DNA from: Maribacter arenosus
Lineage (GTDB): Bacteria > Bacteroidota > Bacteroidia > Flavobacteriales > Flavobacteriaceae
DNA: 64,000 bases
Reading direction: 5' to 3'
Assembly (NCBI RefSeq): GCF_014610845.1
Contig: NZ_JABTCG010000002.1
Location: 372,001-436,000 of the forward strand
A program made the position numbers and the translations under genes. The notes under the pieces were generated by a model. That model searched no databases. It was not told the origin of the DNA and saw only the letters and a program-made list of their open reading frames with translations. This document shows positions 45,973 to 62,005 of this stretch, in pieces. Within the stretch, counting starts at the first letter, position 1, and the number at the start of each line of letters is the position of its first letter.

Positions 45973-47312
45973 AGCAGTTTACCCATGATCTTGTTATGCA
46001 TATGTACGGCAGCCCCATCTGATAAACTCGCCGCATAGCAGCACGTATTCAATACTATTTCATACAAGGGCAATTCGGTACGTTGATAAAACCCCGGCAA
46101 CGTATTTACCATGAGCCTATCATAATTAGAGGCCTTGCCCTTATGGGTCCTAACCAATGCGGTGATGTAAACATCCAAAATATCGGAAATGATTTTATAT
46201 CCTGCAATTTCCTTTTCAATTACCTCTTGCGACCTATAAACCTTATCTACGCTCAAGGCTATGATATCATTTATCTGGGCAATGTACCTACTCTTTTCTA
46301 AGAGGGCTATATCAAAGTCGCCCTTCAGTATGGCCTCTTCGTTCTTAGTGAACACATCGACGGCATCGCTGATCAGGGTACTTATGGCCAATGCACGCAA
46401 ATAACTAAGCCGGTCTTCCTTAAAGGAAAGAGTGTTGTATTTTTTGGTGTTGATACGATCTTTGACCAATTTTATCAAATACTCCAAAGCATAGTCCTCG
46501 GAAATCAGGCCTAGGTTTATTCCGTCTTCAAAATCGATTATGGTATAGCAGATATCATCAGCGGCTTCTACTAAATATGTTAACGGATGCCTTGAAAATG
46601 AAATATCGCTTCCTTCCCGGGTTTGGGTAAGTCCAAGTTCTTCAGCAACAGATAGGAAAGTTTGTTTTTCAGATTGAAAAAAACCGAATTTCTTGTCGGC
46701 TATATGCTTCGTGGGTTTCTTGGGCAATGATTCTTTGGGATACTTCATAAAGGCCCCCAAGGTCGCATACCCCAGCCGTAAACCTCCATCAACACCCGCC
46801 CTGGATTCGGTCAAAAGTTTAAACCCATTGGCGTTGCCTTCAAAATCAATGATGTCCTGATATTCTTTCTCCGATAGCATATCACGGAATTGGAGTCCGT
46901 TACCGGTCTTAAAATACTCGCCTATGGCTTTTTCCCCACTATGCCCAAAAGGTGGGTTGCCAATATCGTGCGCCAATGCAGCTGCAGCCACAATGGCCCC
47001 AAAATCATTGAATTGATACCCATGCACCTCTTTGAGGTGTGGGTGTTTTTCCAAAATATTTTTTCCTGCGATCCTACCCAAACTTCGACCTACCACGGAA
47101 ACTTCCAAACTATGGGTAAGCCGTGTATGCACAAAATCGGTCTTGGAAAGTGGAATTACTTGGGTCTTATCCTGTAGGCTTCGAAAAGCGGAGGAAAAGA
47201 TAATGCGGTCGTAATCGACTTCAAAACCCAAACGGGTCTCATCCTGTTCTTTTCGTAACCTTTTGTGTGTATCGCCCTGGCGTCGTAATGAGAGTAGTTG
47301 TTCCCAGTTCAT
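45969..47312 (-). CDS. dgt: Deoxyguanosinetriphosphate triphosphohydrolase (dGTPase)
   Basis: 447 residues with an HD domain: H67 ('TRLTHSLEVS') and H115-D116 ('ALAHDIGNPPFGHSGE') bind the metal. The start 'MNWEQLLSLRRQGD' and the DNA/nucleotide-binding C-terminal half match dGTPase-type SAMHD1 relatives. It hydrolyses dGTP (or several dNTPs) to the nucleoside and triphosphate, balancing pools. Its promoter faces the first gene of the phosphate island across 189 bp. Confidence 0.92.
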   Translation of the reverse strand: MNWEQLLSLRRQGDTHKRLRKEQDETRLGFEVDYDRIIFSSAFRSLQDKTQVIPLSKTDFVHTRLTHSLEVSVVGRSLGRIAGKNILEKHPHLKEVHGYQFNDFGAIVAAAALAHDIGNPPFGHSGEKAIGEYFKTGNGLQFRDMLSEKEYQDIIDFEGNANGFKLLTESRAGVDGGLRLGYATLGAFMKYPKESLPKKPTKHIADKKFGFFQSEKQTFLSVAEELGLTQTREGSDISFSRHPLTYLVEAADDICYTIIDFEDGINLGLISEDYALEYLIKLVKDRINTKKYNTLSFKEDRLSYLRALAISTLISDAVDVFTKNEEAILKGDFDIALLEKSRYIAQINDIIALSVDKVYRSQEVIEKEIAGYKIISDILDVYITALVRTHKGKASNYDRLMVNTLPGFYQRTELPLYEIVLNTCCYAASLSDGAAVHMHNKIMGKLL

Positions 47313-47392
47313 AGTAGCTATTTTGTAAGGGCAAGATACATTATTTCAATGTTAAGAAATGATAATTATAATTGAAACTGAACTTAAAGTGA

Positions 47393-47470
47393 ATAACCTT
47401 TTACTAACCTTTTAATCAAGGTATTTTAAAATTCGGTTAACATCTTTTTTACAGTTCATGGGTTTCTTTG
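47393..47470 (+). promoter_or_regulatory. Pho-box promoter of the receptor/beta-helix operon
   Basis: Two clusters of 11-bp repeats are present. The distal one has ATAAC (47393-47397) and CTAAC (47404-47408), each followed by CTTTTA. The proximal one has TTAAC (47437-47441) and TTTAC (47448-47452). The -7 TTTG at 47467-47470 lies exactly 14 nt after the last repeat, as in three other promoters here. I infer PhoB-type activation. Confidence 0.7.
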
Positions 47471-47501
47471 CTGTGGTATTTAATTACAGAGAAAATCAAA
47501 C

Positions 47502-50366
47502 ATGAAAAAAATTATTTTCAGTCTATTGGTATTGACCACCGCAGTGCTTAGTGCCCAAAAAAAAGGAAGCATTGTAGGAACGCTTACCGATAAGGCAATG
47601 AACAATGAACCTTTGCCCTTTGCCAACGTAATTTTAAAAGGAACGACCAAAGGAACCACTTCGGATTTTTACGGACTTTATGAAATTCCCAATTTAGAAC
47701 CGGGTACCTATACCTTGGTGTATAGTTTTTTGGGGTATGAAACCGTCGAAATAACTGAGGTAAAGGTTGAAGCGGGTAAAGTTACCTCTATAGATGTACC
47801 TATGGTGGCCACCGGTGTGGCTTTGGAAGGGGTAACGGTTACCACGGTAGCCAGAAAAGATTCGGAGACGGCGCTCCTGATAGATCAGAAAAAAGCAACC
47901 GAAATCAAAGAAAGTATCGGTGCCGTCGAACTTGGTAAAATAGGTGTTTCCGACGTTGCGACCGCGACCACAAAAATATCGGGAGTATCAAGTAGTGAAG
48001 CTTCGGGCAATGTTTTTGTACGTGGGCTTGGAGATCGATACTTATCTACAACGTTGAATGGTTTGACCGTGCCTTCGGATGATGTGGATAAAAAAAATAT
48101 TGATTTATCGCTTTTTCCTACCCGGGTAATCCGAAATGTGAGTATCAGCAAGACGTATGCTGCACAGTCCTCTGCGGACCAATCTTCGGGGAATATAAAT
48201 ATCAGCTCTAGGGAACTCGTAGGTTCAAGGGAATTAAGGGCAAGCCTTACTACGGGAATCAATACCAATGTTGCGAAAAGTGGTGTTTATGACAACTTTA
48301 AAATCTCCCCTAATCAAAGCGATGTGACTTTCGGATTTTACAACTCGAATAGGAGTACGCAACAACAAATCACCCAACAAGGTTGGAACACCAGAAAACA
48401 GGATAATCCCATGGACTATTCATTTGCGCTAACCGCAGGTAAAAGGATAAAGGATAAGTTTTCGATATTTTTTACGGGGTCCCATTCCCGTTCCTATGAA
48501 TATCAGCAAGGTCTTTTTCGCCAATTTAGATCCAATTTCGTAGATGATACCATTACAGATGCCACAACCTATCGTAATAAAACCGTAAACACGGCCTTAT
48601 TGGACATGTCATTCTTTGCGAAAGATAAGAACAAGATTAAATCAACAACGTTCTTTGTGAACAAATTAGACGAATCCATTTTTGAAGGGGGGCGAAATGG
48701 GGAAGCCACTATTTTTGAGGAAACGGCACCAGCCGAAGGCTTGTTCCAATTTATTCGGGACCAAAATACCAAACAAACCCGCTTACTGGTCACCCAATTA
48801 TTGGGTACCCATGACCTAGGGGATAAAAATACCTTGAAATGGGCCGGTGGGTACAATATTCTAAATGCCGATGAACCCAACCGAATTAGAAATGAGGTGA
48901 ACTGGGACCCCAATGAAGTTGAACCCCAATTTGATGTGCAACTCGGAAGAAATGGAGGGTTTCAACAAAGAAAGTCGAGCCAAAAAATTGAGGACATTGA
49001 ATTCAATGGTTTTGTTGCCGATGCCCTACATATTATCGACGAAGATGAAAAATCCTTTAAAATTGAATTGGGAGTCTCTTATAGAAACAAACAAAGGGAA
49101 TTCAGTTCAGAATTCGTAGGTGTTGAGGAAACCTCGACCAACGCCATTAACCCCTCTTCCATAGATAACATCGGAAGTATATTCCAACTATCCAACTTTG
49201 ATAGCGGGGTATTGGAACTCAATCTATTGGGATCCAATGCCAATAATGAACGTAAGGACATCTATACCGGTGAATTGGATTCTAAAGCGGCCTTTGCTGA
49301 TTTCAATGTTGGTCTTAATAAATGGAACATCAATGCAGGGCTACGCTTTCAAAAAGATGAAATAACGGTGAACTATGATATTGGAAACCTGTTTCCAAGA
49401 ACAGGGGAAAGTGTTCAAGAATACAATAACCTCTACCCAAGCTTAAACATTAAATATGCCCTGAATGATTTTCATGCCTTACGGCTTTCCATGAGTAGAA
49501 CGTTGACCCTGCCCGAATTCAAAGAAGTTTCGCCATTCGAATATGTATCCCCAACCGGTCAGGTAATTCGGGGTAATGTAGATGTAAGGGCCTCTAAGAA
49601 CTTGAATTACGATGTTAAATGGGAATACTTCCCCTCCACCACCCAATTGGTTTCCTTTTCTGCCTTTTATAAGGATATATCAGACCCTATAAACAAAGTT
49701 AGGGATAGAGGTTCAGCTGGGGTGTTTTCATATTTCAACTCCGCTGAAAAAGCTGAAGTTTTCGGTCTTGAAGCCGAAACTAGGGTAGACCTGATCAACC
49801 CGGATTTCAACGAAGAAGATGGCACCAAGAGTGGAAACAGCCTAAATCTGGTTCTGAATGCAACACGTATGTGGCACTCCCAGGATCTAAAGGAAATTTT
49901 TAATGAGGAAGGAACATTACTAAGGACTTTTCGATATAAGGGTATTGAGAAAACCGACTTACAAGGTGCTTCAGATTGGATCTTCAATTCAAGTCTTAAT
50001 TTCAATTCTGTAGGCATTAATCAATTCTCTGCATCCCTGAATGCAAACTATGCCTCGGATAAAATATATGCGCTAGGGGTACCAACGGACCAATCCAACA
50101 GGGATATCTTTTATGACGATGCCATTGTTGAAAAAGGATTTGTTGTCCTAAATGCCGTTGTGAGCAAAGTGATTGCGAAAAATTGGAAACTAACCCTTAT
50201 TGGGAAAAACCTTTTAAATCCTGAGATAAAACAAACACAAAGTATTTTGAAGAATGTAGCCGAAATAGCCTCGGATCCCTCCGCAAAAAGATTGGAAGTA
50301 GATGAGACTGTCAGCTCCTATACTACAGGTGTTGGTCTAAGCCTAGGTCTTCGCTATAATTTTTAA
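47502..50366 (+). CDS. TonB-dependent receptor of the phosphate island
   Basis: 954 residues. Signal peptide, then a carboxypeptidase-regulatory-like domain ('GSIVGTLTDKAMNNEPLPFA', ~22-105), a plug ('TTKISGVSSSEASGNVFVRG', 'RVIRNVSISKTYAAQSSADQ') and a large barrel ending 'GVGLSLGLRYNF'. Its plug has the 'GNVFVRGLGDRYLSTTLNG' pattern of receptors paired with secreted or surface lipoproteins. The linked downstream gene (38-bp gap, no terminator between) encodes a tandem beta-helix lipoprotein, and the promoter has 11-bp TTAAC repeats. I infer uptake of a phosphorus compound (phosphate, phosphoester or phosphonate); the ligand is unproven. Confidence 0.88.
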   Translation: MKKIIFSLLVLTTAVLSAQKKGSIVGTLTDKAMNNEPLPFANVILKGTTKGTTSDFYGLYEIPNLEPGTYTLVYSFLGYETVEITEVKVEAGKVTSIDVPMVATGVALEGVTVTTVARKDSETALLIDQKKATEIKESIGAVELGKIGVSDVATATTKISGVSSSEASGNVFVRGLGDRYLSTTLNGLTVPSDDVDKKNIDLSLFPTRVIRNVSISKTYAAQSSADQSSGNINISSRELVGSRELRASLTTGINTNVAKSGVYDNFKISPNQSDVTFGFYNSNRSTQQQITQQGWNTRKQDNPMDYSFALTAGKRIKDKFSIFFTGSHSRSYEYQQGLFRQFRSNFVDDTITDATTYRNKTVNTALLDMSFFAKDKNKIKSTTFFVNKLDESIFEGGRNGEATIFEETAPAEGLFQFIRDQNTKQTRLLVTQLLGTHDLGDKNTLKWAGGYNILNADEPNRIRNEVNWDPNEVEPQFDVQLGRNGGFQQRKSSQKIEDIEFNGFVADALHIIDEDEKSFKIELGVSYRNKQREFSSEFVGVEETSTNAINPSSIDNIGSIFQLSNFDSGVLELNLLGSNANNERKDIYTGELDSKAAFADFNVGLNKWNINAGLRFQKDEITVNYDIGNLFPRTGESVQEYNNLYPSLNIKYALNDFHALRLSMSRTLTLPEFKEVSPFEYVSPTGQVIRGNVDVRASKNLNYDVKWEYFPSTTQLVSFSAFYKDISDPINKVRDRGSAGVFSYFNSAEKAEVFGLEAETRVDLINPDFNEEDGTKSGNSLNLVLNATRMWHSQDLKEIFNEEGTLLRTFRYKGIEKTDLQGASDWIFNSSLNFNSVGINQFSASLNANYASDKIYALGVPTDQSNRDIFYDDAIVEKGFVVLNAVVSKVIAKNWKLTLIGKNLLNPEIKQTQSILKNVAEIASDPSAKRLEVDETVSSYTTGVGLSLGLRYNF

Positions 50367-50404
50367 TTGAATATAATAACTAATAAATTTTAAAACCCTA
50401 TTTT

Positions 50405-52429
50405 ATGAAAACGAAAAATTTAAGAGTAACAATGGGTCTTTTGGCCATCTTCAGCTTGTTCCTGACGAGCTGTTCCAGTGATGACGGCGGTACGGATCCA
50501 GCCCCTGATGCCACATGTACCGACCAAAAAATGAACGGTGATGAAACCGGAGTAGATTGCGGTGGCTCGTGTGCACCTTGTGAAGACACAAATCTCACGG
50601 GTTCAATGTCTGAAGACAGAACTTTGGATGCTAGTAAAACCTACACACTCACCACAACTTTTAGTATTGAATCTGGAGCTACATTAACCATTCCTGCAGG
50701 CACTATGATCGTTGCCGACGTAGAAAGTGGGGATGAGACCAGTACCTATATCGTTGTTCAAAAAGGCGGTAAAATCAATGTCCAAGGCACGGCCTCCAAT
50801 CCAGTGGAAATGACTTCCGCTAACGGGTCTCCTGGTGACTGGGGTGGTTTGGTTATCGCCGGTAATGCCACAACGACGGAAGGTACTGATGCTACCGCTG
50901 AAGTAGGTCAAATTACTTATGGTGGAACGGATGATGCGGATAACTCAGGTTCTATCAGCTATTTGATCATTAGAAATGCAGGTGCCCAGATCAACCCTGA
51001 CTCACAGTACAATGGTCTTACCCTTTATGCGGTAGGTTCAGGTACTACGATTGACAATGTTGCTTTGTTGGATGGTAAGGATGACGGTGTTGAATTCTTT
51101 GGTGGAACTGTTTCCGCTTCCAACTTCTACTTGGAAAACAACGAGGATGATGCCGTGGATTGGACAGAGGGATGGAACGGTACTTTGACCAATGCCTATG
51201 TTGTTCATACACTAGAAGGGTTCTCTACGGCCGTTGAAGCCGATGGTGAGAACGGAAACCCCACCTTGGCCAATTTTACAGCTGTTTCAACTGTTGGCGG
51301 TACTGCACTACAGTTCAAGAAAACCTCAGGCGCCACGATTACCGGTCTTTCCCTGGCAGGTTATGATACTTCCGTTGACATGAAAGATGACGGTCCACTT
51401 GCCAATGTACAGATTGATGGTTCCGATGCTGACCCAACGCTGAGTTACATCGCCACCCCAACTGTTTCTATTGAAAGCTTTGATTGGGTAAATTCGCAAG
51501 TCGTTGTCGAAACCAGCGTATTATCAGGTAGTATAACTGCTGATTTGACCTTGGATGCCGATATAATTTATTATTTAGATCAAACTTTGAGTATAGAGTC
51601 AGGTGCATCTTTAACAATTCCGGCTGGAACTACTATTATTGCCGATGTTGAAACCGGTGATGAGACCAGCACGTATATTGTCGTACAAAAAGGCGGTATG
51701 ATCGATATCCAAGGCACTGATGCAAGTCCTGTTGTTATGACCTCATCTAATGAAAACCCTGGTGACTGGGGAGGTTTGGTCATCGCAGGTAATGCTTCCA
51801 CTACCGAAGGTACAGACGCTACTGCCGAGGTGGGTCAGATCACCTATGGTGGAACTGACGATGCCGACAGCTCCGGTTCCATCAGTTACTTGATCATCAG
51901 GTATACCGGTGCACAAATCAACTCCGAATCCCAGTACAACGGTCTTTCACTTTATGCCGTAGGTTCAGGAACTACTATCGAGAATATTGCCATACTGGAC
52001 GGTAAGGATGATGGAGTCGAATTCTTTGGGGGAACAGTTTCTGCCTCCAATTTTTACCTGGAAAACAACGAAGATGATGCTATAGATTGGACTGAAGGTT
52101 GGAACGGCACCTTGACCAATGCCTATGTTTCACATACAAATGCAGGTTTCTCAACGGCCGTGGAAGCGGACGGGGTCAATAACAATCCTAAACTTGTGAA
52201 TTTAACGGCCATTACTACCCAAGATGGTACTGCATTACAATTCAAGAAGACCTCAGGGGCTACGATCACCAACCTTTATCTTGAGGGGTATACCGCTTTA
52301 ATAGATATGAAAGACGCTGGTCCTTTGGCCAATATTCAAATTGATGGTTCCGATGCAACCGTTGATGGTCCTTACAACACCGGAACGAAAGTTGACGTAA
52401 CTATGTTTGATTGGGCCACAGGAAACTAG
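50405..52429 (+). CDS. Surface lipoprotein with two tandem ~310-residue beta-helix-like modules
   Basis: 674 residues. Lipobox 'LFLTSCSS' (C23), an acidic linker, then a cysteine-rich segment 'CTDQKMNGDETGVDCGGSCA' common in Flavobacteria surface proteins. Two modules follow (about 65-365 and 370-674) with near-identical blocks: 'IPAGTMIVADVESGDETSTY' / 'IPAGTTIIADVETGDETSTY', 'GDWGGLVIAGNA' twice, and 'DGKDDGVEFFGGTVSASNFY' twice. This repeated pattern resembles right-handed beta-helix proteins. The acidic D/E-rich loops could bind a metal. It shares an operon with the TonB receptor, so a ligand-capturing surface partner is plausible. No catalytic residues recognised. Confidence 0.85.
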   Translation: MKTKNLRVTMGLLAIFSLFLTSCSSDDGGTDPAPDATCTDQKMNGDETGVDCGGSCAPCEDTNLTGSMSEDRTLDASKTYTLTTTFSIESGATLTIPAGTMIVADVESGDETSTYIVVQKGGKINVQGTASNPVEMTSANGSPGDWGGLVIAGNATTTEGTDATAEVGQITYGGTDDADNSGSISYLIIRNAGAQINPDSQYNGLTLYAVGSGTTIDNVALLDGKDDGVEFFGGTVSASNFYLENNEDDAVDWTEGWNGTLTNAYVVHTLEGFSTAVEADGENGNPTLANFTAVSTVGGTALQFKKTSGATITGLSLAGYDTSVDMKDDGPLANVQIDGSDADPTLSYIATPTVSIESFDWVNSQVVVETSVLSGSITADLTLDADIIYYLDQTLSIESGASLTIPAGTTIIADVETGDETSTYIVVQKGGMIDIQGTDASPVVMTSSNENPGDWGGLVIAGNASTTEGTDATAEVGQITYGGTDDADSSGSISYLIIRYTGAQINSESQYNGLSLYAVGSGTTIENIAILDGKDDGVEFFGGTVSASNFYLENNEDDAIDWTEGWNGTLTNAYVSHTNAGFSTAVEADGVNNNPKLVNLTAITTQDGTALQFKKTSGATITNLYLEGYTALIDMKDAGPLANIQIDGSDATVDGPYNTGTKVDVTMFDWATGN

Positions 52430-52450
52430 GCCACAATTAAATACCACTGA

Positions 52451-52486
52451 GAGTCCTGTCTTTACCGTCAGGACTTTCTTTTTTTG
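52451..52486 (+). terminator. Terminator of the receptor/beta-helix operon
   Basis: AGTCCTG and CAGGACT stem followed by TTCTTTTTTT. Confidence 0.85.
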
Positions 52487-52541
52487 ATTACGTATCGCAT
52501 GGAACAAAGGAAAGACCAGATCAATCAATAAAGACCCTTTG

Positions 52542-52586
52542 ATAACCATTATATAACGTTCAGTTAATTTGAAGTTATTTTATTTG
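52542..52586 (+). promoter_or_regulatory. Pho-box promoter of the 129-residue protein gene
   Basis: Three repeats at 11-bp steps: ATAAC (52542), ATAAC (52553) and TTAAT (52564-52568). TTTG at 52583-52586 is exactly 14 nt after the last repeat. The ATG is at 52603. Confidence 0.65.
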
Positions 52587-52602
52587 CAAAAACAGTATTA
52601 CC

Positions 52603-52992
52603 ATGAACAAAATAACATTCCTACTTGCATTTTTATTCGCCCTCAACATTCTTGCCCAGGATAAAGGGTCCCTTTCCGGTAGGGTTTTGGATATGGGGTT
52701 GAACAATGAACCTATGTTAATGGCGTATGTCGCATTGAAAGACTACTCCCAAAAAGTAGAAACAAATTTTCATGGTAATTTTGAGTTCAAGAACATTCCG
52801 GTTGGAAAGCATACCCTGGTAGTGGGTTATACCGGTTATGAGACCGTTGAGATTGCCGTACACATTACAAAGGATAAGACATCTAGAATTCGATGTGGTC
52901 TATATCAAAAAACGATTGTTTTGGGCGATTATCATCCCATTCATACGGATCATACCGAAGCTTCCCTTGCAGTAGAGACAAGTCTAGAGTAA
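52603..52992 (+). CDS. Stand-alone carboxypeptidase-regulatory-like secreted protein
   Basis: 129 residues: signal peptide ('MNKITFLLAFLFALNILAQ') and one beta-sandwich ('GSLSGRVLDMGLNNEPMLMA', 'GKHTLVVGYTGYETVEIAVH'). It is clearly related to the N-terminal domain of the TonB receptor at 47502 ('TDKAMNNEPLPFANV', 'GTYTLVYSFLGYETVEI') but has no plug or barrel. It has its own Pho-box promoter, so it is expressed with the island. It could be a duplicated receptor domain with an independent periplasmic role; that role is unknown. A few histidines near the C-terminus ('GDYHPIHTDHTEAS') might bind metal. Confidence 0.78.
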   Translation: MNKITFLLAFLFALNILAQDKGSLSGRVLDMGLNNEPMLMAYVALKDYSQKVETNFHGNFEFKNIPVGKHTLVVGYTGYETVEIAVHITKDKTSRIRCGLYQKTIVLGDYHPIHTDHTEASLAVETSLE

Positions 52993-53028
52993 ATATCCAT
53001 CCTATAAGAATTCTATGGGTATATTTTA

Positions 53029-53069
53029 AAAAGGAAACAACCCGCTTATAGGCGGGTTGTTTCCTTTTA
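53029..53069. terminator. Bidirectional terminator
   Basis: A 16-17 bp stem (AAAAGGAAACAACCCGC paired with GCGGGTTGTTTCCTTTT) with flanking A and T runs serves the convergent genes at 52603 and 53087. Confidence 0.9.
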
Positions 53070-53086
53070 TAAATCGATGATTTTTT

Positions 53087-53449
53087 TCAGTTCTTGACAA
53101 GCGCTTCCTTCTTCACTCCGTCTACACTGGCGATTCCCTCCGCATTATATCTGACTTCTTTCATGGATTCACCGGACCAAAAAACCCATTTTCCAACTTT
53201 ACGGCCATTTGAATAGGAACCTTTAGAGATCAGTTTACCTTCTTCACTGAAACTCACCCATTCTCCATGCAATTTTCCATCCAGGTTGAAGGTCCCTGCT
53301 TGACTTACATTGCCGTTATCGTGAAAATAAGTCGCCTCAATCAGTTTGGTCTCCTCATTTAATCCAATCTTTTCCTCGCTTTGGGCATAGGTCAAGGTCG
53401 AAACCAAGAGAATAATAAGAAGTAAAATGGCATTCTTCATGACCAACAT
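53087..53449 (-). CDS. Secreted MORN/YwqK-like repeat protein
   Basis: 120 residues: signal peptide ('MKNAILLLIILLVSTLTYAQ' begins at residue 4) and MORN-type strands 'ATYFHDNGNVSQAGTFNLDG', 'KLHGEWVSFSEEGKLISKGS' and 'YSNGRKVGKWVFW'. Such proteins are often annotated as YwqK-type antitoxins, but a signal peptide makes that name doubtful here. It lies opposite to the island's other genes and lacks a correctly oriented Pho box. Confidence 0.8.
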   Translation of the reverse strand: MLVMKNAILLLIILLVSTLTYAQSEEKIGLNEETKLIEATYFHDNGNVSQAGTFNLDGKLHGEWVSFSEEGKLISKGSYSNGRKVGKWVFWSGESMKEVRYNAEGIASVDGVKKEALVKN

Positions 53450-53477
53450 TGACTATTTAAAGAATAAAGTTAAGAAT

Positions 53478-53532
53478 TTTACTTTAATGTTACCTTTTAT
53501 TAACCTTAATTTTACATTGATATTGTTCTTTA
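53478..53532 (+). promoter_or_regulatory. Four-repeat Pho box and promoter of a non-coding unit
   Basis: TTTAC (53478-53482), GTTAC (53489-53493), TTAAC (53500-53504) and TTTAC (53511-53515) stand at exact 11-bp steps, the longest such array here. The following sequence ATTGATATTGTTCTTTA closely matches the porin promoter (ATTGGCATCTGTTCTTTG), giving a -7 element near 53526-53532. No protein gene follows on this strand before a terminator. Confidence 0.7.
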
Positions 53533-53537
53533 CCCAG

Positions 53538-53736
53538 AACCAGGAACATTTGGTTTGATTTATTGTTTAAAAGATTTTATAATTCCTTAATGTTCCCATT
53601 ACATTTAGTTTATTTTCATCACCTAGCTTTGACGTGTCTTAAGACAAACATTAGTATTTTCATATAATTTATTAGTTTTTGTCGACTATATTATCATGAA
53701 TCCTAATAACTGCCTTTGGCCAAGGCAGTTTTTTTA
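53538..53736 (+). ncRNA. Candidate phosphate-regulated small RNA
   Basis: About 200 nt between the four-repeat Pho-box promoter and a strong terminator at 53709-53736. Only tiny ORFs are present (26 codons from the ATG at 53590, and one running into the terminator), with no convincing coding character. The internal palindrome TGTCTTAAGACA (about 53635-53646) could form a hairpin. The 5' end is estimated from promoter spacing, not measured. No known RNA family is recognised. Confidence 0.5.
53709..53736 (+). terminator. Terminator of the candidate small RNA
   Basis: ACTGCCTT-TGGCC-AAGGCAGT followed by TTTTTTTATT: an 8-bp GC-rich stem with a U-run. There is no protein gene upstream on this strand for over 700 bp. 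Confidence 0.9.
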
Positions 53737-53762
53737 TTCCTTTTATTGATTGTTGTTCAAAA

Positions 53763-53808
53763 GTTAATGTTTTTTGAACATTAACTTAACATTGGCATCT
53801 GTTCTTTG
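53763..53808 (+). promoter_or_regulatory. Pho-box promoter of the porin gene
   Basis: TGAAC (53775-53779) and TTAAC (53786-53790) at 11 bp, then TTTG at 53805-53808 after exactly 14 nt. A perfect 9-bp inverted repeat GTTAATGTT/AACATTAAC (53763-53785) overlaps it. Confidence 0.7.
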
Positions 53809-53831
53809 TAGCGACAAAAATTAATAACACG

Positions 53832-55025
53832 ATGAAAATCAAATTACTTACCTTAGGATTCATCCTTTTAGGAACCCTTACTTCATTTTCCCAAGAAACC
53901 AACGCACCTAAATTCGGCAAAGGGCTGTTCAATTTAGTTGGGCAAGACAGTACTTGGACCATGAAGATTGCCACACGAATGCAATTCCTATCTGTTGCAA
54001 CCTGGGATGAAGGGCCAGACGGAGGTCTTGTAAATCCCGAACAAAATTTTTTGGTCCGTAGGGCCCGATTAAAATTTGATGGTTACGCTTATACCCCTAA
54101 ACTAAAATATAAATTAGAATTAGGTTTATCGAATAGGGACATTTCCGGAGCTTCCCAATTTACAAGCAACGCCCCACGCTATATATTGGATGCGGTCGTC
54201 ATGTGGAATTTTTATGAAAATTTTGAATTATGGGTGGGGCAGACCAAATTGCCAGGTAATATAGAACGTGTAATCTCATCCGGAAATTTACAACAAGTAG
54301 ATCGTTCGTTGTTGAACAGTAGATTTAATATAGATCGGGATGCCGGAATACAGTTGAGGCATCATTTTAACCTATCGGATAATTTCCTGGTGCGGGAGAA
54401 ATTCGCCATTTCCCAAGGGGAGGGAAGAAATGTTACTACTGGTAATTTAGGAGGGCATCAATATACGACTAGACTTGAATTATTGCCATTTGGTGATTTT
54501 GATGATTATGATGGTAGTGATTTGAACCGCGAAACTAAACCAAAGTTGATGTTGGCGGTAAACTACGATATCAATCAAAATGCAGTAAAGACCCGAAGTA
54601 ACCAAGGTTCTTATATGGCCAATGATGTTGGTTTTTATGAAACCAACATAAATACATTCTTTTTCGATGGTATATTCAAATACAACGGTTTTTCATTTAT
54701 GTGGGAATATGCCAATAGGGATGCCGATGACCCGATTGCCAAGAATTCCGATGGTACCGAAACAGGTGATGTGGTTTGGACAGGTGACGGTCTAAATCTG
54801 CAGTCTGGTTATCTTATGGCTAAAGATTGGGAGATTTCTGGACGTTATACCACCATAAACCTCGATGCCATTACAGGAAGAAATGCAGAAACCCAATATA
54901 CGCTCGGTCTATCAAAATACATCGTGGGACACAAACTCAAGGTACAAACAGATTTGAGCTATCTTTCGGTTGATGGTGGATCTGATGAATTGATGTACAG
55001 ATTGCAATTGGATGTTCATTTCTAA
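53832..55025 (+). CDS. Outer-membrane porin, phosphate-selective OprP/OprO-like
   Basis: 397 residues with a signal peptide ending near 'SFSQETNAP' and an outer-membrane beta-barrel with features of the porin O/P family: 'NFLVRRARLKFDGYAYTPKL' near the start, 'WVGQTKLPGNIERVISSGNL' in the middle, and a terminal 'YRLQLDVHF'. OprP-type porins pass phosphate or polyphosphate across the outer membrane. Here the gene is between a Pho-box promoter and the pst genes, which supports that role. Arginine/lysine residues that would form the anion ladder cannot be mapped confidently without an alignment. Confidence 0.87.
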   Translation: MKIKLLTLGFILLGTLTSFSQETNAPKFGKGLFNLVGQDSTWTMKIATRMQFLSVATWDEGPDGGLVNPEQNFLVRRARLKFDGYAYTPKLKYKLELGLSNRDISGASQFTSNAPRYILDAVVMWNFYENFELWVGQTKLPGNIERVISSGNLQQVDRSLLNSRFNIDRDAGIQLRHHFNLSDNFLVREKFAISQGEGRNVTTGNLGGHQYTTRLELLPFGDFDDYDGSDLNRETKPKLMLAVNYDINQNAVKTRSNQGSYMANDVGFYETNINTFFFDGIFKYNGFSFMWEYANRDADDPIAKNSDGTETGDVVWTGDGLNLQSGYLMAKDWEISGRYTTINLDAITGRNAETQYTLGLSKYIVGHKLKVQTDLSYLSVDGGSDELMYRLQLDVHF

Positions 55026-55041
55026 TAAAAACGACCTTTAT

Positions 55042-55073
55042 AAAAAAAGAGGTCTCATAGGGCCTCTTTTTTT
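55042..55073 (+). terminator. Terminator of the porin gene
   Basis: AAAAAAAGAGG and CCTCTTTTTTT pair around a 10-nt loop with a T-run; the flanking A and T runs make it potentially bidirectional. Confidence 0.8.
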
Positions 55074-55090
55074 GTTGAGTCCTAAATAAC

Positions 55091-55168
55091 TTAACACTTT
55101 AATAACCTTTACGTAGTGGTTTCTTCATTTTGAATTAACCCCAAGTTAACCTTCCTGCTCTTTCTTTG
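55091..55168 (+). promoter_or_regulatory. Double Pho-box promoter of the pst operon
   Basis: Distal repeats: TTAAC (55091-55095) and ATAAC (55102-55106). Proximal repeats: TTAAC (55135-55139) and TTAAC (55146-55150), both 11 bp apart. TTTG at 55165-55168 is 14 nt after the last one, identical to three other promoters in the island. Confidence 0.75.
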
Positions 55169-55194
55169 CTGGGAATAATTTAGACGACAAAAAA

Positions 55195-56154
55195 ATGAAA
55201 AGAATTTTAGTTTTAATGTCATTGGCCTTAATCATAGGGGCTTGTGGCGACAAAAAAGAAAAGAAAGGTACTGAAGGCACAGATGGGACAGCTGCCCTGT
55301 CAGGTACGATTAAGGTTGATGGCTCAAGTACGGTTTTTCCAATTACGGAAGCAGTGGCTGAAGAATTTCGAGCGGTTCAGCCGAAAGTAAATGTGACAGT
55401 CGGCGTTTCGGGTACCGGTGGAGGGTTTAAAAAATTCTCCAGAGGGGAAACAAACCTTTCCAACGCTTCCCGTCCTATTAAGGACAAGGAGAAAGAAGCT
55501 TGTGAAGAAAACAACATTACATATTTGGAATTGGAAGTTGCCTATGACGGCCTAGCTGTTTTGGTGCATCCAGAAAATGATTGGGTAGATAGCTTTACCG
55601 TTGAAGAACTCAAAAAAATCTGGGAACCTTCTGCCCAAGGCAAAATCATGAAATGGAACCAAATCAGACCCGAATGGCCCAATCAGGAAATCCATTTATT
55701 CGGCCCTGGGGTAGCATCAGGCACATATGATTATTTTACCGAAGCCGTTGTAGGGGAAAGTGGTTCAAGTAGAGGCGATTTTACTGCTAGTGAAGATGAC
55801 CATGTTCTCGTACAAGGAATTGCCGGTGATAAATATTCCTTAGGATTCTTTGGGATTGCATATTATGCCGAAAACAAGGACAAATTAAAATTAATTGGTG
55901 TACATAACGGGGAAGAAGTGGTTAAACCATCCCTTGAAACGGTCAAAAATGGTACCTACAGACCCTTGTCAAGACCCTTGTTCATCTATGTAAATAGCAC
56001 CTCTGTTGCCTCTCCTGAAGTTGTCGAGTTTGTAAACTTCTATTTGGATAATGCAGGTGAATTATCTAAAGATGTGGGTTATATTCCGCTTCCATCAGAA
56101 AACTACAGGGCTCAAAAAGAAAGTTTCAAAACTTTTGTTGAAAGTAACAAATAA
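55195..56154 (+). CDS. pstS: PstS, periplasmic phosphate-binding lipoprotein
   Basis: 319 residues. Lipobox 'ALIIGACG' (C17), then the PBP fold: '[20 protein letters not shown]', '[20 protein letters not shown]' and '[20 protein letters not shown]' are the classic phosphate-binding loops (S/T-rich, with D from 'VDGSS'). It delivers phosphate to PstCA. The gene follows the double Pho box; a hairpin separates it from pstC, which may allow higher PstS levels. Confidence 0.96.
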
Positions 56155-56222: not shown

Positions 56223-57101
56223 ATGCGAAAAATCAAAGAATTGATAATCGAAAAGTCGCTGTTATCCAGCGCCTTGGTAACCATTGCGGTTACTCTTGGG
56301 ATTATCCTCGTATTGGCTATTGAGGCTTTTCGATTTTTTAGCGAGGTTTCGATTTTTGATTTTTTTACCGATACGCAATGGACACCGCTTTTCACCGAAA
56401 AGCATTTTGGGATTTTACCCTTGTTGTCCGGTACTTTACTTACTTCGTTTATTGCCATAGCCTTTGCCCTCCCAATAGGACTATCGATAAGCATTTATTT
56501 AAGTGAATATGCCCCTAAGGCTTTTCGTAAATCGGTAAAACCTCTTTTAGAACTCCTTGCAGCAGTACCCACGGTAGTTTACGGTTTCTTCGCTCTAGTG
56601 GTCGTGACCCCATTTTTACAGGAAATCATTCCGAACCTATCCGGATTCAACTCCCTATCTGCAGGTATTGTAATGGGAATAATGATTATTCCATACATAT
56701 CGTCATTAAGTGAAGATGCGCTTCACGCCGTTCCTGATTCGCTCCGCGAAGCATCGTTTGGTATGGGATCTACAAAATTCCAAACGGCATTCAAGGTCAT
56801 TGTGCCAGCTGCATCTTCCGGAATTATTGTTTCCATAATCTTGGCGATATCCAGGGCCATTGGTGAAACCATGATCGTTGCCATAGCGGCAGGGCAACAA
56901 CCTAGATTGACTTTGGATCCTACGGTGCCCATAGAAACGATTACAGCTTATATCGTTCAGGTCAGTTTGGGGGATGTACAACATGGTTCCTTGGAATACA
57001 GGACCATTTTTGCTGCCGGTATCACCCTATTCGTGTTTACATTTTTATTGAATACTTTGAGCTACCGTATCAGAAAAAAATTCCAAGAAAAATATGAATA
57101 A
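56223..57101 (+). CDS. pstC: PstC, phosphate ABC transporter permease
   Basis: 292 residues from the ATG at 56223 (a TTG three bases before is not needed). Six membrane helices with the permease motif 'EASFGMGSTKFQTAFKVIVP' and the loop 'AISRAIGETMIVAIAAG' that contacts the ATPase. It forms the inner-membrane channel with PstA. Its 3' end overlaps pstA by 8 bp. Confidence 0.95.
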   Translation: MRKIKELIIEKSLLSSALVTIAVTLGIILVLAIEAFRFFSEVSIFDFFTDTQWTPLFTEKHFGILPLLSGTLLTSFIAIAFALPIGLSISIYLSEYAPKAFRKSVKPLLELLAAVPTVVYGFFALVVVTPFLQEIIPNLSGFNSLSAGIVMGIMIIPYISSLSEDALHAVPDSLREASFGMGSTKFQTAFKVIVPAASSGIIVSIILAISRAIGETMIVAIAAGQQPRLTLDPTVPIETITAYIVQVSLGDVQHGSLEYRTIFAAGITLFVFTFLLNTLSYRIRKKFQEKYE

Positions 57102-57933
57102 TCTTCGTAAAAACAGGCTGAAGGATCAGCTCTTCAAATTCTGGGGGATTTTCTGTACCATTATCGGTTTGGTACTGCTCGTCGTATTTATTGGCGATAT
57201 TTTAGTTGATGGTTTAAGAAGAATAGACTGGGGGTTCATTACCAACCTTCCTTCACGAAAACCAGAAAAATCGGGCATTTATACGGCTTTGATGGGAAGT
57301 ATATGGATTTTGTTCTTTACCACCATAATCGCCTTTCCTATAGGCGTGGCTGCAGGTATATACCTTGAGGAATACAGCAAGAAAAATAAACTTGCCGGCT
57401 TATTGGAAATAAATATTTCAAACCTAGCCGGTGTCCCCTCTATTATTTATGGATTATTAGGTTTAGAGGTCTTTGTTAGGATCATGAATCTTGGGCCAAG
57501 TGTTTTAGCTGGGAGTTTAACCCTTTCATTATTGATACTCCCCATAGTGATTGTAGCAACCAGAGAAGCGATCAAAGCGGTGCCTTCTTCTATCAAAGAT
57601 GCCTCTTTTGCATTGGGCGCGTCTAAATGGCAGACCATTTGGCACCAGATTTTACCCGCTTCAGGAGGGGGTATTTTAACGGGGGTAATTTTGGCTCTAT
57701 CAAGGGCAGTGGGTGAAACGGCACCTTTGATTGTTGTTGGGGCATTGGCCTATGTTCCTTTCGCACCGGAAAATCCCTTGGACGAATTTTCGGTACTACC
57801 GATTCAAATATTCAATTGGATATCAAGGCCACAACCCGGATTTATTGAAAATGCGGCAGCTGCTATAATCATATTACTGCTGATCACTTTTATTATGAAC
57901 GGTATTGCAGTTTATTTTAGAAACAAATGGTAG
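57094..57933 (+). CDS. pstA: PstA, phosphate ABC transporter permease
   Basis: 279 residues, six membrane helices, and the family's '[20 protein letters not shown]' coupling segment plus '[20 protein letters not shown]'. It pairs with PstC. It overlaps pstC by 8 bp and pstB by 7 bp, so the three are translated as a coupled unit. Confidence 0.95.
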
Positions 57934-58766
57934 AAGAAATGGAAATAATTATGGAAAAACCTATTAAAGAACCTAAGATACTGGATAGTGTTATAGATAC
58001 CTCCTTAAAAAAAACACATAAAATAGCGGTTAATGGTGCAAAAGTATGGTATGGCGATTTCGAAGCTATTAAAGGTATCGATATGACCATCAAGGCAAAT
58101 ACGGTAACCGCCTTTATTGGCCCTTCTGGATGTGGCAAATCTACTTTTCTTCGCTTATTCAACAGAATGAACGATTATGTCGATAGTTTTAGAATGGAAG
58201 GCAAAATCAAAATTGATGGAAACAATATTTACAAAAAAAAGGTGAATGTTGAAGAGCTTCGCAAAGAAGTAGGGATGGTATTTCAAAAACCAAATCCTTT
58301 TCCAAAATCTATTTTCGAAAATGTTGCTTACGGATTAAAGATCCAAGGTATCAAGGATAAAAAATTCATCAATGATCGTGTAGAAAAGGCATTGAGGCAA
58401 GCAGACCTATGGGATGAGGTAAAAAACGACCTTAAAAAATCAGGTCTGGCCTTGTCCGGAGGTCAACAACAGCGTTTGTGTATTGCCAGAACCTTGGCGG
58501 TTGAACCATCGATCATTTTAATGGATGAACCCACTTCCGCCTTGGATCCAATCTCCACAGCCAAGATAGAACAACTAATTTTTGAGCTTAAAAAGAAATA
58601 TACCATAGTCATCGTTACCCATAATATGCAACAAGCCAGTAGAATAAGCGATTATACTGCATTTTTTTATATGGGAGAGCTCATCGAATATGACAAGACA
58701 AAAATAATTTTCACCAACCCCAGTATAAAACAGACCGAGAATTATATTACCGGTCGATTTGGATAA
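57927..58766 (+). CDS. pstB: PstB, phosphate ABC transporter ATP-binding protein
   Basis: 279 residues. Walker A 'GPSGCGKST' (65-73), Q-loop '[20 protein letters not shown]' characteristic of PstB, signature 'LSGGQQQR' and Walker B '[13 protein letters not shown]'. The start overlaps pstA. An N-terminal extension of ~30 residues before the ABC domain is longer than in E. coli; an internal ATG at 57951 could be an alternative start. Confidence 0.96.
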
Positions 58767-58777
58767 ACTTAAAAACT

Positions 58778-59440
58778 ATGGATAACGCAGAATATCAACG
58801 AGAAGCACTGAATCAATCAGCATTCGATATGCTTACCCTATGCACCTCACAATTAGAAAAGGCCATTGAAGCCTTTGTAAGTCATGACAGTGATTTATCC
58901 GAAGAGGTAATCCATAAGGAAAATAGAGTGAATGCCATGGATATCAAAATAGAAAAGGATTGTGAAAAATTCCTTGCCCTTTTTAATCCTGTCGCCATTG
59001 ATTTACGGTTTATTATGGCCATCCTTAAGATCAATTCAGATTTGGAAAGAATAGCCGATCATGCCTTTAACATATGCAATTACGTGGTAGAAGAGGAAAA
59101 TGCCATATCGAACAAGCTTTTTGAGGCTGTTGATTTTAAAAAAATGGTGGAAACCACCAAATCGATGATGGATAACATCACCGTAGCTTTTGTAGAGGAA
59201 GATGTTAAAATAGCCCGTAAAGTCTTTAAAAAAGATAAGGTTTTAGATAAGATAAACATTCAGTCGTTCAATAACTTAGCGGCCGAAATTGAAAAAGACC
59301 CAAAAATAATAAGGGAAGCCCTATTTCTGTTCTCAGTAATCAAAAAATTGGAACGTGTTGGGGATTTGATCAAAAACATTGCCGAGGAGATCATTTTTTA
59401 TACCGATGCAGAAATCCTAAAGCACAAAAGGAAAAAATAG
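58778..59440 (+). CDS. phoU: PhoU, phosphate signalling regulator
   Basis: 220 residues with two PhoU three-helix repeats ('IHKENRVNAMDIKIEKDCEK', 'IDLRFIMAILKINSDLERIA', and 'ALFLFSVIKKLERVGDLIKN'). It connects the Pst transporter to PhoR to shut down the Pho response when phosphate is ample. 11 bp after pstB, so in the same operon. PhoR/PhoB themselves are not in the window. Confidence 0.95.
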   Translation: MDNAEYQREALNQSAFDMLTLCTSQLEKAIEAFVSHDSDLSEEVIHKENRVNAMDIKIEKDCEKFLALFNPVAIDLRFIMAILKINSDLERIADHAFNICNYVVEEENAISNKLFEAVDFKKMVETTKSMMDNITVAFVEEDVKIARKVFKKDKVLDKINIQSFNNLAAEIEKDPKIIREALFLFSVIKKLERVGDLIKNIAEEIIFYTDAEILKHKRKK

Positions 59441-59728: not shown

Positions 59729-62005
59729 ATGGACAATCTTTACTTTTTAATGATCATTGCACTTGCCGTATTGGCAATTGCGGATCTTGTAGTCGGTGTT
59801 AGTAATGACGCCGTCAATTTTTTAAACTCCGCCCTTGGCTCGAAGGCCATTTCCTTTAAAACGATTATGATCGTTGCCAGTTTAGGCATATTCTGTGGAG
59901 CTGTTTTCTCCAGTGGTTTGATGGAGGTTGCCCGAAAAGGTATTTTCATTCCTAGTGAATTTATGTTCAGTGAAATCATGATCATTTTTATGGCCGTTAT
60001 GATCACTGATATTTTATTGCTCGATTTTTTCAATACCTTAGGGATGCCGACTTCCACTACGGTTTCCATAGTCTTTGAACTATTGGGCGCTGCTGTAGCC
60101 ATGGCGTTGATCAAGATTGGTGCAGCAGGGGACTCATTTTCCGAAGTGGTCAACTATATCAATACCTCAAAGGCAACTGAGATCATATTGGGTATACTAC
60201 TCTCTGTGGTAGTCGCATTCTCGGTTGGAGCGATGGTACAATATGTTTCACGATTATTACTCTCCTTTAATTTTGAAAGAAAGGCTAAATGGGTTGGGGC
60301 CATTTTTGGAGGGTTCGCTCTATCGGCAATCACTTATTTTATTTTTATCAAGGGTCTGAAGGGCACCGATTATTATGCTGAAATACAACCGATGATCGAA
60401 GGTAGAACTGCTATTATAGTTGCTATTAGCTTCTTGATATGGACCATGTTATCCTATATCGTGGTTACCGTATTTAAAAAGAACATTTATAAACTTATTA
60501 TAGCCGTGGGTACTTTTGCCTTGGCCTTGGCTTTTGCCGGTAATGATCTTGTCAATTTTATAGGGGTGCCCATAGCTGCCTATCAATCCTATGAGGCTTG
60601 GACGGCCGCAGGTGTGCCCGCCACAGAGTTCGCCATGGGCGTGTTGGGAAACAAAGTACCCACCCCAACAACATTTCTGCTCATTGCCGGTTTGGTCATG
60701 GTCTTGACCCTATGGTTCTCCAGTAAGGCAAAAAAAGTTGTAAAGACTTCAATTGATCTTTCGAGCCAAGCAGAAACCAAAGAACGTTTCGAGCCCAATT
60801 ATTTATCAAGGAATTTGGTGCGGTTTACAATGCTGGCAGCTAAATATACCGAAACGGTTTTACCTACTTCTATTCTAGACAGGATTGAAAAGCAATTTCA
60901 AAAACCTGTCATTGAACTCCCAAAAGGGAAAAAACACGAACTCCCAGCCTTTGACTTGGTAAGGGCAGCGGTGAACTTAATGGTTGCCAGTGTGCTCATT
61001 TCCATCGCAACTTCAATGAAACTGCCATTATCTACAACCTATGTGACCTTTATGGTCGCCATGGGTACGTCATTGGCCGATAGGGCATGGGGTAGCGAAA
61101 GTGCGGTTTATAGGGTCGCAGGTGTACTTAATGTCATTGGTGGTTGGTTCTTTACCGCACTATGTGCATTCATCGCAGCTGGTACAGTGGCCTATTTAAT
61201 ACATTTAGGAGGTGGGGCAATGATCGCGGTTTTATTATTATTGGCTGCTCTTTTATTGGTTCGAAACTATATTAGTCATACGAAGAAAAGTAGGGAAGTA
61301 AAGGCCGAAGATAGCTTGAGTAAAGCGGAAAGTCAATCCATACATGGTGTCATTGAAGAAAGTGCGGATAACATTTCAAAAGCGCTTAAACGGGTCAGTA
61401 AAATAAACCAAACAACGATCAATGGACTGATAAACCAAGATTTGGATGCCCTTAAAAAGGCGAAGAATACAGTAGTGAAATTAGAAAATGAAATTGAGGA
61501 ATTACAAAACGATATTTTCTATTTTATAAAGGAATTGGATGATTCTTATTTAGGTGCAAGTAAGTTTTATATCGATGTTATCGGTAGCATACAGGATGTT
61601 GCACAATCCTCCAGTTTAATTGCCAAAGTGAGCCATAAACATGTGCACAACAACCATAAGGCCTTAAAGAAAAAACAAGCAGAGGAGTTGTTGGATATAA
61701 ATGATAAACTGGTAAGTTTATTCGATAAAATAAGGGGGGTTTTCCAAACTAGGACATTTGAAGTCATAGTCCCAGGAATCATTGAAGAAAAACAGGCCTT
61801 ACTGGACAAAGTTCAAGAGGCCATACAAAAACAAGTAGAACGAACCCGTACTGAAGAGTCAACAAGTCCCAAGAACACCACACTTTATTTTAGTATACTG
61901 TTAGAAACGAAAGACCTTATCAAGGCCAATATGAATATCTTGAACTTGTACCATGACGAACATAATCGTTCCATTGAACTTATGGGCCCCGAAGTGGAAG
62001 AATAA
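59729..62005 (+). CDS. PiT-family inorganic phosphate permease fused to a PhoU-like tail
   Basis: 758 residues. The N-terminal ~510 residues are a PHO4/PiT transporter with the duplicated signature 'DLVVGVSNDAVNFLNSALGS' and 'AFAGNDLVNFIGVPIAAY', and about 12 membrane helices. The last ~230 residues are cytosolic, helical and coiled ('LKKAKNTVVKLENEIEELQN', 'LLDKVQEAIQKQVER'), resembling a PhoU/DUF47 domain. PiT carriers move phosphate with protons or sodium at low affinity. Fusion of the regulatory tail in one chain is common in Bacteroidota. It follows pst-phoU after 288 bp with different upstream palindromes. Confidence 0.9.
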   Translation: MDNLYFLMIIALAVLAIADLVVGVSNDAVNFLNSALGSKAISFKTIMIVASLGIFCGAVFSSGLMEVARKGIFIPSEFMFSEIMIIFMAVMITDILLLDFFNTLGMPTSTTVSIVFELLGAAVAMALIKIGAAGDSFSEVVNYINTSKATEIILGILLSVVVAFSVGAMVQYVSRLLLSFNFERKAKWVGAIFGGFALSAITYFIFIKGLKGTDYYAEIQPMIEGRTAIIVAISFLIWTMLSYIVVTVFKKNIYKLIIAVGTFALALAFAGNDLVNFIGVPIAAYQSYEAWTAAGVPATEFAMGVLGNKVPTPTTFLLIAGLVMVLTLWFSSKAKKVVKTSIDLSSQAETKERFEPNYLSRNLVRFTMLAAKYTETVLPTSILDRIEKQFQKPVIELPKGKKHELPAFDLVRAAVNLMVASVLISIATSMKLPLSTTYVTFMVAMGTSLADRAWGSESAVYRVAGVLNVIGGWFFTALCAFIAAGTVAYLIHLGGGAMIAVLLLLAALLLVRNYISHTKKSREVKAEDSLSKAESQSIHGVIEESADNISKALKRVSKINQTTINGLINQDLDALKKAKNTVVKLENEIEELQNDIFYFIKELDDSYLGASKFYIDVIGSIQDVAQSSSLIAKVSHKHVHNNHKALKKKQAEELLDINDKLVSLFDKIRGVFQTRTFEVIVPGIIEEKQALLDKVQEAIQKQVERTRTEESTSPKNTTLYFSILLETKDLIKANMNILNLYHDEHNRSIELMGPEVEE

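Follow-up and report, generated by a model that had tools for sequence, protein, structure and literature searches.

A phased Pho-box-like promoter architecture and a predicted small RNA complementary to a porin leader in a phosphate island of Maribacter arenosus

Do the promoters of a flavobacterial phosphate island share one operator, and what would that operator control? We analysed a 64,000-nucleotide stretch of Maribacter arenosus DNA (RefSeq assembly GCF_014610845.1, contig NZ_JABTCG010000002.1, positions 372,001 to 436,000 of the forward strand; source genome 4.17 Mb), hereafter called the window, to which plain coordinates refer. A preliminary description had reported four promoters in which two pentamers 11 bp apart are followed by exactly 14 nt and TTTG, upstream of a TonB-dependent receptor (TBDT), a secreted domain protein, a porin and pstS. 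All four stand exactly at the positions described, on the + strand, and domain searches bore out the gene types. A fifth promoter of this architecture, and the RNA that follows it, were absent from that description. Our reading, to which we give a probability of about 0.75, is that PhoB-type promoters drive the island and also a small RNA (sRNA) of ~100 nt that pairs with the porin leader, likely as a brake.

The operators comprise three to five phased half-sites, beyond the two first described. In the TBDT promoter, five half-sites follow one another in phase at 11 bp (CTAAC/ATCAA/TTAAA/TTAAC/TTTAC); the pstS array also spans 55113, where GTAGT is in phase but is no half-site. The 11-bp direct repeat named as the operator thus stands as a repeat period, but two half-sites are too few. 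The gap between TTTG and the start codon is 31 nt for the TBDT, 16 nt for the CarboxypepD_reg protein, 23 nt for the porin and 26 nt for pstS.

That this arrangement is more than chance follows from its conservation, that is, from the ranks given by an independent profile and from the specificity of the spacing across genera. We read the 30 best TBDT loci and built a profile from 25 of the 29 promoters of other genomes, leaving out L104, L109, L110 and L115, which have no good box at the usual place; A1 takes in 21 of the 25. With the own genome excluded, the profile has five pentamers spaced 11 bp apart and, after a further 14 nt, TTTGC, and it ranks the reported sites 1 to 4 among ~128,000 window positions, with scores of 48 (TBDT), 32 (pstS), 6 (CarboxypepD_reg protein) and -3 (porin), followed by -9 for the fifth position. 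The same geometry also occurs 5' of porins in relatives. Allowing two mismatches, N6/N14 spacing was found in 58 of 80 porin upstream regions, as opposed to 0-19 with other repeat gaps and 2-21 with other TTTG gaps, and in 23 of 29 TBDT promoters, as opposed to 0 and 0-8, respectively. For pstS the eight closest loci were compared; in L043 and L044 the porin end lies directly upstream of pstS, and four of the six non-own loci with an intergenic upstream region share the geometry (L038, L039, L041 and L042; not L040 or L045). The proposal of a shared operator-promoter of fixed geometry was therefore upheld.

A sequence-only model, R1, trained on 33 promoters taken from other genomes, was applied to ten genomes that had no part in its training, one of which (G261) is a genus-mate of a training genome. 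It gave 29 matches at E<=0.01, 23 of them before TBDT, porin or CarboxypepD_reg genes: 10 at 20-34 nt 5' of a TBDT gene, 9 at 19-26 nt 5' of a porin gene and 4, in four of the ten genomes, at 20-26 nt 5' of a small CarboxypepD_reg gene. Another adjoins phoB (L374), and five lie elsewhere. Among the nine best R1 places in M. arenosus, only the first three of which have E<0.001, five are in the island (pstS, TBDT, the array at 53476, CarboxypepD_reg protein and porin), one precedes a pafA-like gene and three have no clear phosphate gene. From these genome comparisons, the extended profile, and not the literal pattern, is what seems to work as a search tool; our literature searches brought up no published operator definition for this group that we recognised. 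The third-best genomic match (L149:4084-4140; G000:C24:23083-23139) has phased TTTAC/TTAAC, with no open reading frame of at least 70 aa starting within 400 nt downstream.

The literal pattern TTAAC-N6-TTAAC-N14-TTTG had been put forward as a searchable definition, and in that role it did not hold. In the window it matches three times at up to one mismatch, each time at a reported site, where 60 first-order Markov sequences predict 0.1; at exactly two mismatches there are three matches, one of them a reported site, where 1.4 are predicted. The whole genome has 1, 9 and 65 sites at 0, 1 and 2 mismatches. The scan at one mismatch suggested earlier gave 10 sites, compared with ~6.5 extrapolated from the Markov sequences and 2 for a spacing-shifted pattern. 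Random genome-wide frequency had been named as the refuting outcome, and at up to two mismatches the literal pattern occurs at about chance (75 sites; ~99 extrapolated). A reversed-pattern control, of other make-up, gave 158 sites at up to two mismatches and, for the shifted pattern, 17 at up to one. The observation is real, yet the written consensus is too weak for searching, because its genome-wide count is close to the Markov extrapolation. As a regulon finder it was rejected: among the 73 of 75 sites whose context was read (window 20752 and 24365 were left out), most are intragenic or have no gene within 200 nt downstream. The nine one-mismatch sites comprise two in the island, one each before a pafA-like gene, an S1/P1-like nuclease gene and a gene for a small secreted protein, two that are intragenic and two without a gene within 200 nt.

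Two of these sites deserve separate mention, their genes having been named by eye. At L009:1501-1534 (G000:C21:84542-84575), TTAAC-N6-TTAAT-N14-TTTG lies ~30 nt before a PafA-like alkaline phosphatase gene; one Flavobacterium paper abbreviates Pi-irrepressible phosphatase (Pi, inorganic phosphate) as PafA. At L008:1501-1534 (G000:C20:460096-460129, - strand), a one-mismatch site is directly 5' of an S1/P1 nuclease-like gene, whose product is plausibly a phosphate-scavenging enzyme.

PhoB control of the island promoters, judged from gene content and comparison, is well supported but unproven. Three OmpR-type regulators were found in the genome. The best candidate is encoded on contig 19, and the gene after it is for a histidine kinase; the top solved relatives of this regulator are MtrA, RpaA and RegX3, with the receiver domain of E. 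coli PhoB further down. A divergent phoBR pair adjoins the same TBDT in 7 of the 30 fetched TBDT loci, which hold only 1.5 kb of flank, and the PhoB proteins there are 72-86% identical to that of M. arenosus. The available text of a review (PMC4415409) presents Pho boxes as direct repeats of 11 nt in tandem. Pi depletion strongly induces a TBDT and a lipoprotein in the phoBR cluster of Flavobacterium johnsoniae, with 8.02 and 9.91 in the fold-change column (log2 assumed), according to the available parts of PMC8115612. The match to PhoB, drawn from the genes controlled, is partly supported by these data and by phoBR beside the TBDT. Elsewhere in the phylum, the accessible text of PMC3547664 has Bacteroides fragilis PhoB binding its own pstC promoter, and that of PMC9603813 gives TTTAACA as the most conserved nucleotides of the DAP-seq motif of Riemerella PhoP.

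A conserved stretch that separates the MORN gene from the porin, and has a promoter and a terminator to itself, would be transcribed as the sRNA. The half-sites of the sRNA promoters are TTAAT, ATTAC and NTNAN, and we tested these promoters separately. Aligned on TTAAT-N6-NTTAC, those of relatives read TTAAN-N6-TTAAT-N6-ATTAC-N6-NTNAN-N14-TTTG. With up to one mismatch, 45 of 63 have the exact TTTG gap, compared with at most 13 at other gaps; for the repeat gap, 55 of 63 fit at N6, but 46 at N10 and 0-11 at the remaining gaps. The strict TTAAC definition was rejected for these promoters (2/63; at three mismatches 8/63, fewer than at several wrong gaps).

The core pattern of the RNA was found in 22 of 30 porin loci, and a covariance model, R2, found it in 63 of 80 named loci, always upstream of the porin; species overlap between the two sets is probable. 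R2 was built from 25 sequences of similar loci, the window copy (L151) among them. Its match in the window (53622-53736, 105.8 bits) is the only copy in the genome, at an E value of 4e-23 that reflects a copy in the training set. With the stricter filters used in both R2 searches, the Flavobacteriaceae had matches in 152 of 299 genomes at E<=0.01 and in 121 of 299 at E<=1e-6, and the best match outside the family among 395 genomes of the class had E 6.4e-5. We rely on the 121, because 22 of the 30 class-search genomes at E<=0.01 fall outside the family. Matches outside the family and in genus g127 were set aside as noise (E 6.4e-5 or worse); of two g127 loci, one has no more of the RNA than a core-like stretch, and the other lacks even that. 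A search of 47300-55300 gave no Rfam match over 53532-53740 up to E=1, and our literature searches, the supplementary tables of PMC9723704 aside, brought up no paper that we recognised as dealing with this sRNA; it is apparently undescribed.

Both RNA ends appear structured. In the terminator stem, 7 of 8 pairs have changed on both sides in relatives, and a 5' hairpin of at least 4 pairs occurs in 81 of 88 copies, a count without control. RNAalifold on a MAFFT alignment found the terminator alone. Evidence for the stem that presents the pairing segment came from permutation: the flanks of the pairing loop reach -8.9 kcal/mol with their own partner and -6.6 with another's (0/20,000 permutations). 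By-eye inspection of the sRNA alignment revealed no conserved start codon. Hfq (PF17209) was not found in the genome in a search positive for 5 of 14 control genomes.

Reverse-complementing the sRNA core TATTAGTTTTTGTCG gives the leader consensus CGACAAAAACTAATA; in the window the leader is CGACAAAAATTAATA, which forms one G-U pair with the sRNA. We place the porin mRNA start at G53813 because the -7 box of F. psychrophilum spans -12 to -5 in the accessible text of PMC9723704. The predicted leader is then 19 nt long, and the duplex would cover its first ~14 nt. After two of 88 loci without a recognisable leader anchor had been dropped (L226 and L092), 15 consecutive positions were paired in 61-73 of 73 distinct rows each, with alternative pairs near the segment ends. 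Both-side changes numbered 70, compared with a mean of 48 and a maximum of 67 in 5,000 shuffles, and the 5' flank was paired at 93.4%, compared with 87.0% (maximum 90.1%). Duplex energies in 25 loci were -20.5 kcal/mol for matched and -17.9 for mismatched partners (0/20,000 permutations), the matched mean being weakened by the leaders of L096 and L097, mis-set by 12-18 nt and kept in. Porin start codons were picked by rule, and some are possibly wrong (e.g., L226). The 14-mer CGACAAAAAYTAAT occurs exactly twice in the genome, in the sRNA (antisense) and in the porin leader.

The two elements are also mostly lost together. Of 63 loci that have the RNA, 62 keep the leader, whereas 4 of the 17 that lack it do so (Fisher p=1e-10); where the RNA is absent the leader has mostly decayed (13/17 without a recognised leader, vs 1/63). 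In G071 and G110 the RNA lies 5' of another Porin_O_P gene; these two porins are 73% identical to each other and share with the window porin only a 30% stretch over 105-132 columns. In G003 it precedes a third Porin_O_P gene with no significant match to the other two. Before all these non-orthologous porins the leader is still (C/T)GACAAAAACTAA. As far as alignments can tell, the sRNA segment is complementary to the start of the porin message, and the two have co-evolved. The pstS leader was dropped as a second target, having only CGACAAAAA next to its ATG.

In the mechanism that we propose, PhoB dimers would bind head to tail on three to five NTAAC-like half-sites 11 bp apart. These stop 14 bp short of the TTTG in the -7 box and would take the place of the -33 element; their fixed place before the -7 box suggests that RNA polymerase is recruited from a fixed position. 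One further promoter of this architecture would make the ~100-nt sRNA, with a 5' hairpin, a stem-loop able to present the 15-nt segment and a terminator. By pairing with roughly 15 nt at the 5' end of the porin mRNA, the greater part of its leader, the segment would tie porin synthesis to the PhoB response without Hfq. We favour repression: the sRNA most likely hides the leader from the ribosome, so that PhoB would switch on the porin and its brake together. We also consider it reasonably probable that the Flavobacteriaceae hold a widespread, undescribed family of Hfq-independent, PhoB-activated sRNAs directly 5' of phosphate porins, which pair with the 5' terminus of the porin mRNA in a feed-forward loop, the module of RNA, leader and operator staying in place while non-orthologous porins are exchanged.

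The main rival is that the sign is the opposite, the sRNA protecting or opening the message at its extreme 5' end and so activating the porin, as in the 5'-end protection known for RoxS (available text of PMC5419742). The complement does lie at the predicted mRNA +1 and not around the start codon, and two RNAs from PhoB-type promoters would simply reinforce one another under activation. Yet with a predicted leader of only ~19 nt, a duplex of 15 bp would leave little of the ribosome landing site free, and in a phylum without Shine-Dalgarno sequences mRNA structure tunes translation (PMC6847099, in the part available); we therefore regard activation as possible but doubtful. Still less probable is an action in cis, in which read-through transcripts from the distal promoter would have the RNA segment and the porin leader paired in one molecule, and their translation would be silenced. 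The sRNA and the leader are indeed co-directional and ~130-230 nt apart wherever both were found, but between them stands a terminator that is conserved and covaries, and a separate porin promoter lies directly before the leader. That the complement is a DNA-level inverted repeat or a chance remnant without RNA function is very improbable, given the covarying changes, the co-loss with the RNA, its uniqueness in the genome and its retention before non-orthologous porins.

A further alternative concerns the protein: the activator might be another OmpR-family regulator or might serve a wider stress response, phosphate control having been deduced from the genes alone. The genome has two other OmpR-type regulators, and Riemerella PhoP, with its TTTAACA core, gave 583 DAP-seq peaks and was tested on the moxR promoter by electrophoretic mobility shift assay, according to the accessible text of PMC9603813; TTAAC-N6-TTAAC also precedes a moxR-like gene in M. 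arenosus (L073; G000:C19:178676-178709, - strand; named by eye). However, each reported target is either a phosphate gene or an outer-membrane neighbour of one, phoBR is the divergent TBDT neighbour in the loci mentioned above, and comparable F. johnsoniae genes respond to Pi depletion (PMC8115612, as far as available), which makes this alternative unlikely.

Several results weigh against PhoB-driven expression of the island and against pairing of the sRNA with the porin leader. On their own, the R1 E values in M. arenosus are weak for the CarboxypepD_reg protein (0.12), the porin (0.19) and the pafA-like gene (0.36). There is no R1 match at phoB's own promoter in this genome, and phoB autoregulation was dropped for that reason. 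In the available text of PMC8115612, the OprP-like porin of the F. johnsoniae phoBR cluster, Fjoh_0542, was not induced by Pi depletion (-1.3, 0.245). In its minimum-energy fold, the window RNA has the pairing segment base-paired with its 5' part. Pairing of the 3' flank (+9 to +12) shows no excess over shuffles (41.8% vs 40.0%, maximum 42.8%), and overall pairing is 74.2% compared with a shuffled mean of 72.7%, a value reached in 5 of 5,000 shuffles, which ignore phylogeny; the overall excess is narrow because the core is nearly invariant. Four loci have a leader but no detected RNA, and one has the RNA but no recognised leader. Finally, one of the sRNA copies (G107, L308) is followed by a PiT-like gene with no complement in its leader. 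This exception could reveal another sRNA target.

The TTAAC core is close to the B. subtilis PhoP half-site, TTAACA. As in the Pho boxes of PhoB(PhoP) regulon promoters of E. coli, B. subtilis and others, tandem 11-nt direct repeats precede phosphate genes (PMC4415409, as far as available). Unlike known Pho boxes, the promoters described here have the Bacteroidota -7 box TTTG at a fixed 14-nt gap and up to five half-sites, and their targets include a TBDT/lipoprotein pair and the sRNA. MicF and MicC are small RNAs that pair with a porin mRNA leader. Compared by description, the predicted sRNA resembles them in this respect but differs in that no Hfq was found here, the predicted mRNA 5' end would be the paired part and the sRNA would be made from a PhoB-type promoter beside its target. 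It also resembles Rfp18 of F. psychrophilum, an sRNA conserved in flavobacteria, from which it is set apart, again by description, by the predicted Rfp18 targets reported in the accessible text of PMC9723704, metalloproteases and an adhesin. The island is like the F. johnsoniae phoBR cluster (PUSIV), where phoBR, TBDT and lipoprotein lie together and are induced by Pi depletion; the available main text of PMC8115612 does not use the terms "Pho box", "promoter" or "small RNA", and OprP was uninduced there. Riemerella anatipestifer PhoP, likened to our case by motif, is a Flavobacteriia regulator with the core TTTAACA studied for pathogenicity, and "pst" does not occur in the available main text of PMC9603813.

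The analysis offers a conserved operator-promoter definition for phosphate control in Flavobacteriaceae, of which half-site number, spacing and targets are testable. It also predicts a family of regulatory RNAs for which a single clear target co-evolves. How sRNAs act on leaders in a phylum without Shine-Dalgarno sequences, here in a genome that yielded no Hfq, thereby becomes directly testable.

Table 1. Coordinates of predicted promoters, RNA elements and genes in the window
Feature	Coordinates	Strand	Basis or remark
TBDT promoter, core TTAAC-N6-TTTAC-N14-TTTG	47437-47470	+	1 mismatch to TTAAC-N6-TTAAC-N14-TTTG
TBDT promoter, full	47404-47470	+	half-sites at 47404, 47415, 47426, 47437, 47448; N14; TTTG at 47467-47470
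TBDT with CarboxypepD_reg and plug domains	47502-50366	+	domain search
Lipoprotein-like secreted protein	50405-52429	+	without Pfam match
Promoter of 129-aa CarboxypepD_reg protein, core ATAAC-N6-TTAAT-N14-TTTG	52553-52586	+	2 mismatches
Promoter of 129-aa CarboxypepD_reg protein, full ATAAC-N6-ATAAC-N6-TTAAT-N14-TTTG	52542-52586	+	
Secreted CarboxypepD_reg domain protein, 129 aa	52603-52992	+	domain search
MORN-repeat protein, divergent from sRNA	53087-53449	-	domain search
Array of four phased half-sites (TTTAC, GTTAC, TTAAC, TTTAC)	53476-53531	+	R1 match; between MORN gene and sRNA promoter
sRNA promoter TTAAT-N6-ATTAC-N6-TTTAT-N14-TTTG	53587-53631	+	fifth promoter of this architecture
Predicted sRNA, ~100 nt	53636-53736	+	start inferred from TTTG; end at terminator T-run
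15-nt pairing segment of sRNA, TATTAGTTTTTGTCG	53670-53684	+	
Intrinsic terminator of sRNA	53708-53736	+	stem covaries in relatives
Porin promoter, core TGAAC-N6-TTAAC-N14-TTTG	53775-53808	+	1 mismatch
Porin promoter, full TTAAT-N6-TGAAC-N6-TTAAC-N14-TTTG	53764-53808	+	
Porin leader segment complementary to sRNA	53812-53826	+	predicted mRNA 5' end, +1 near 53813
Porin_O_P porin (phosphate-selective porin O/P family)	53832-55025	+	domain search
pstS promoter, core TTAAC-N6-TTAAC-N14-TTTG	55135-55168	+	0 mismatches
pstS promoter, full	55091-55168	+	55091 TTAAC, 55102 ATAAC, 55124 TTCAT, 55135 TTAAC, 55146 TTAAC; N14; TTTG
PstS-like phosphate-binding protein	55195-56154	+	domain search
PHO4/PiT phosphate permease	59729-62005	+	domain search
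Na+/Pi cotransporter	62056-63834	-	domain search
Possible Pho box of Na+/Pi cotransporter, TTTAC-N6-TTTAC-N6-TTAAC, N14, then ATTC	63943-63987	-	without TTTG

The genes of the island are listed in Table 1. The TBDT has a match at E<=1e-100 in 80 of 149 family genomes and a relative of the lipoprotein-like protein adjoins it in 30 of 30 fetched loci, the own genome counted in both cases; from its position and description, we infer that this protein is like the FII lipoprotein of F. johnsoniae. Of the two sets of porin loci, 17 of the 30 and 35 of the 80 have a homologue of the MORN gene, and two of the closest named porin relatives are from Maribacter (85% and 84% identity). Only 11 of 120 family genomes yielded pstS. 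The genes at 56223-59440 (+ strand) we take, from their order and sequence features, to be pstC, pstA, pstB and phoU. In nine relatives (L358-L366) a PiT permease gene starts ~1290 nt after the porin promoter, at the place of pstS in the window. A pair resembling the array at 53476-53531 is also present in L092, and a second PiT-like gene just past the window (L150, ~2100-2214) has a phased pair, ATAAC-N6-TTCAC-N14-TTTA.

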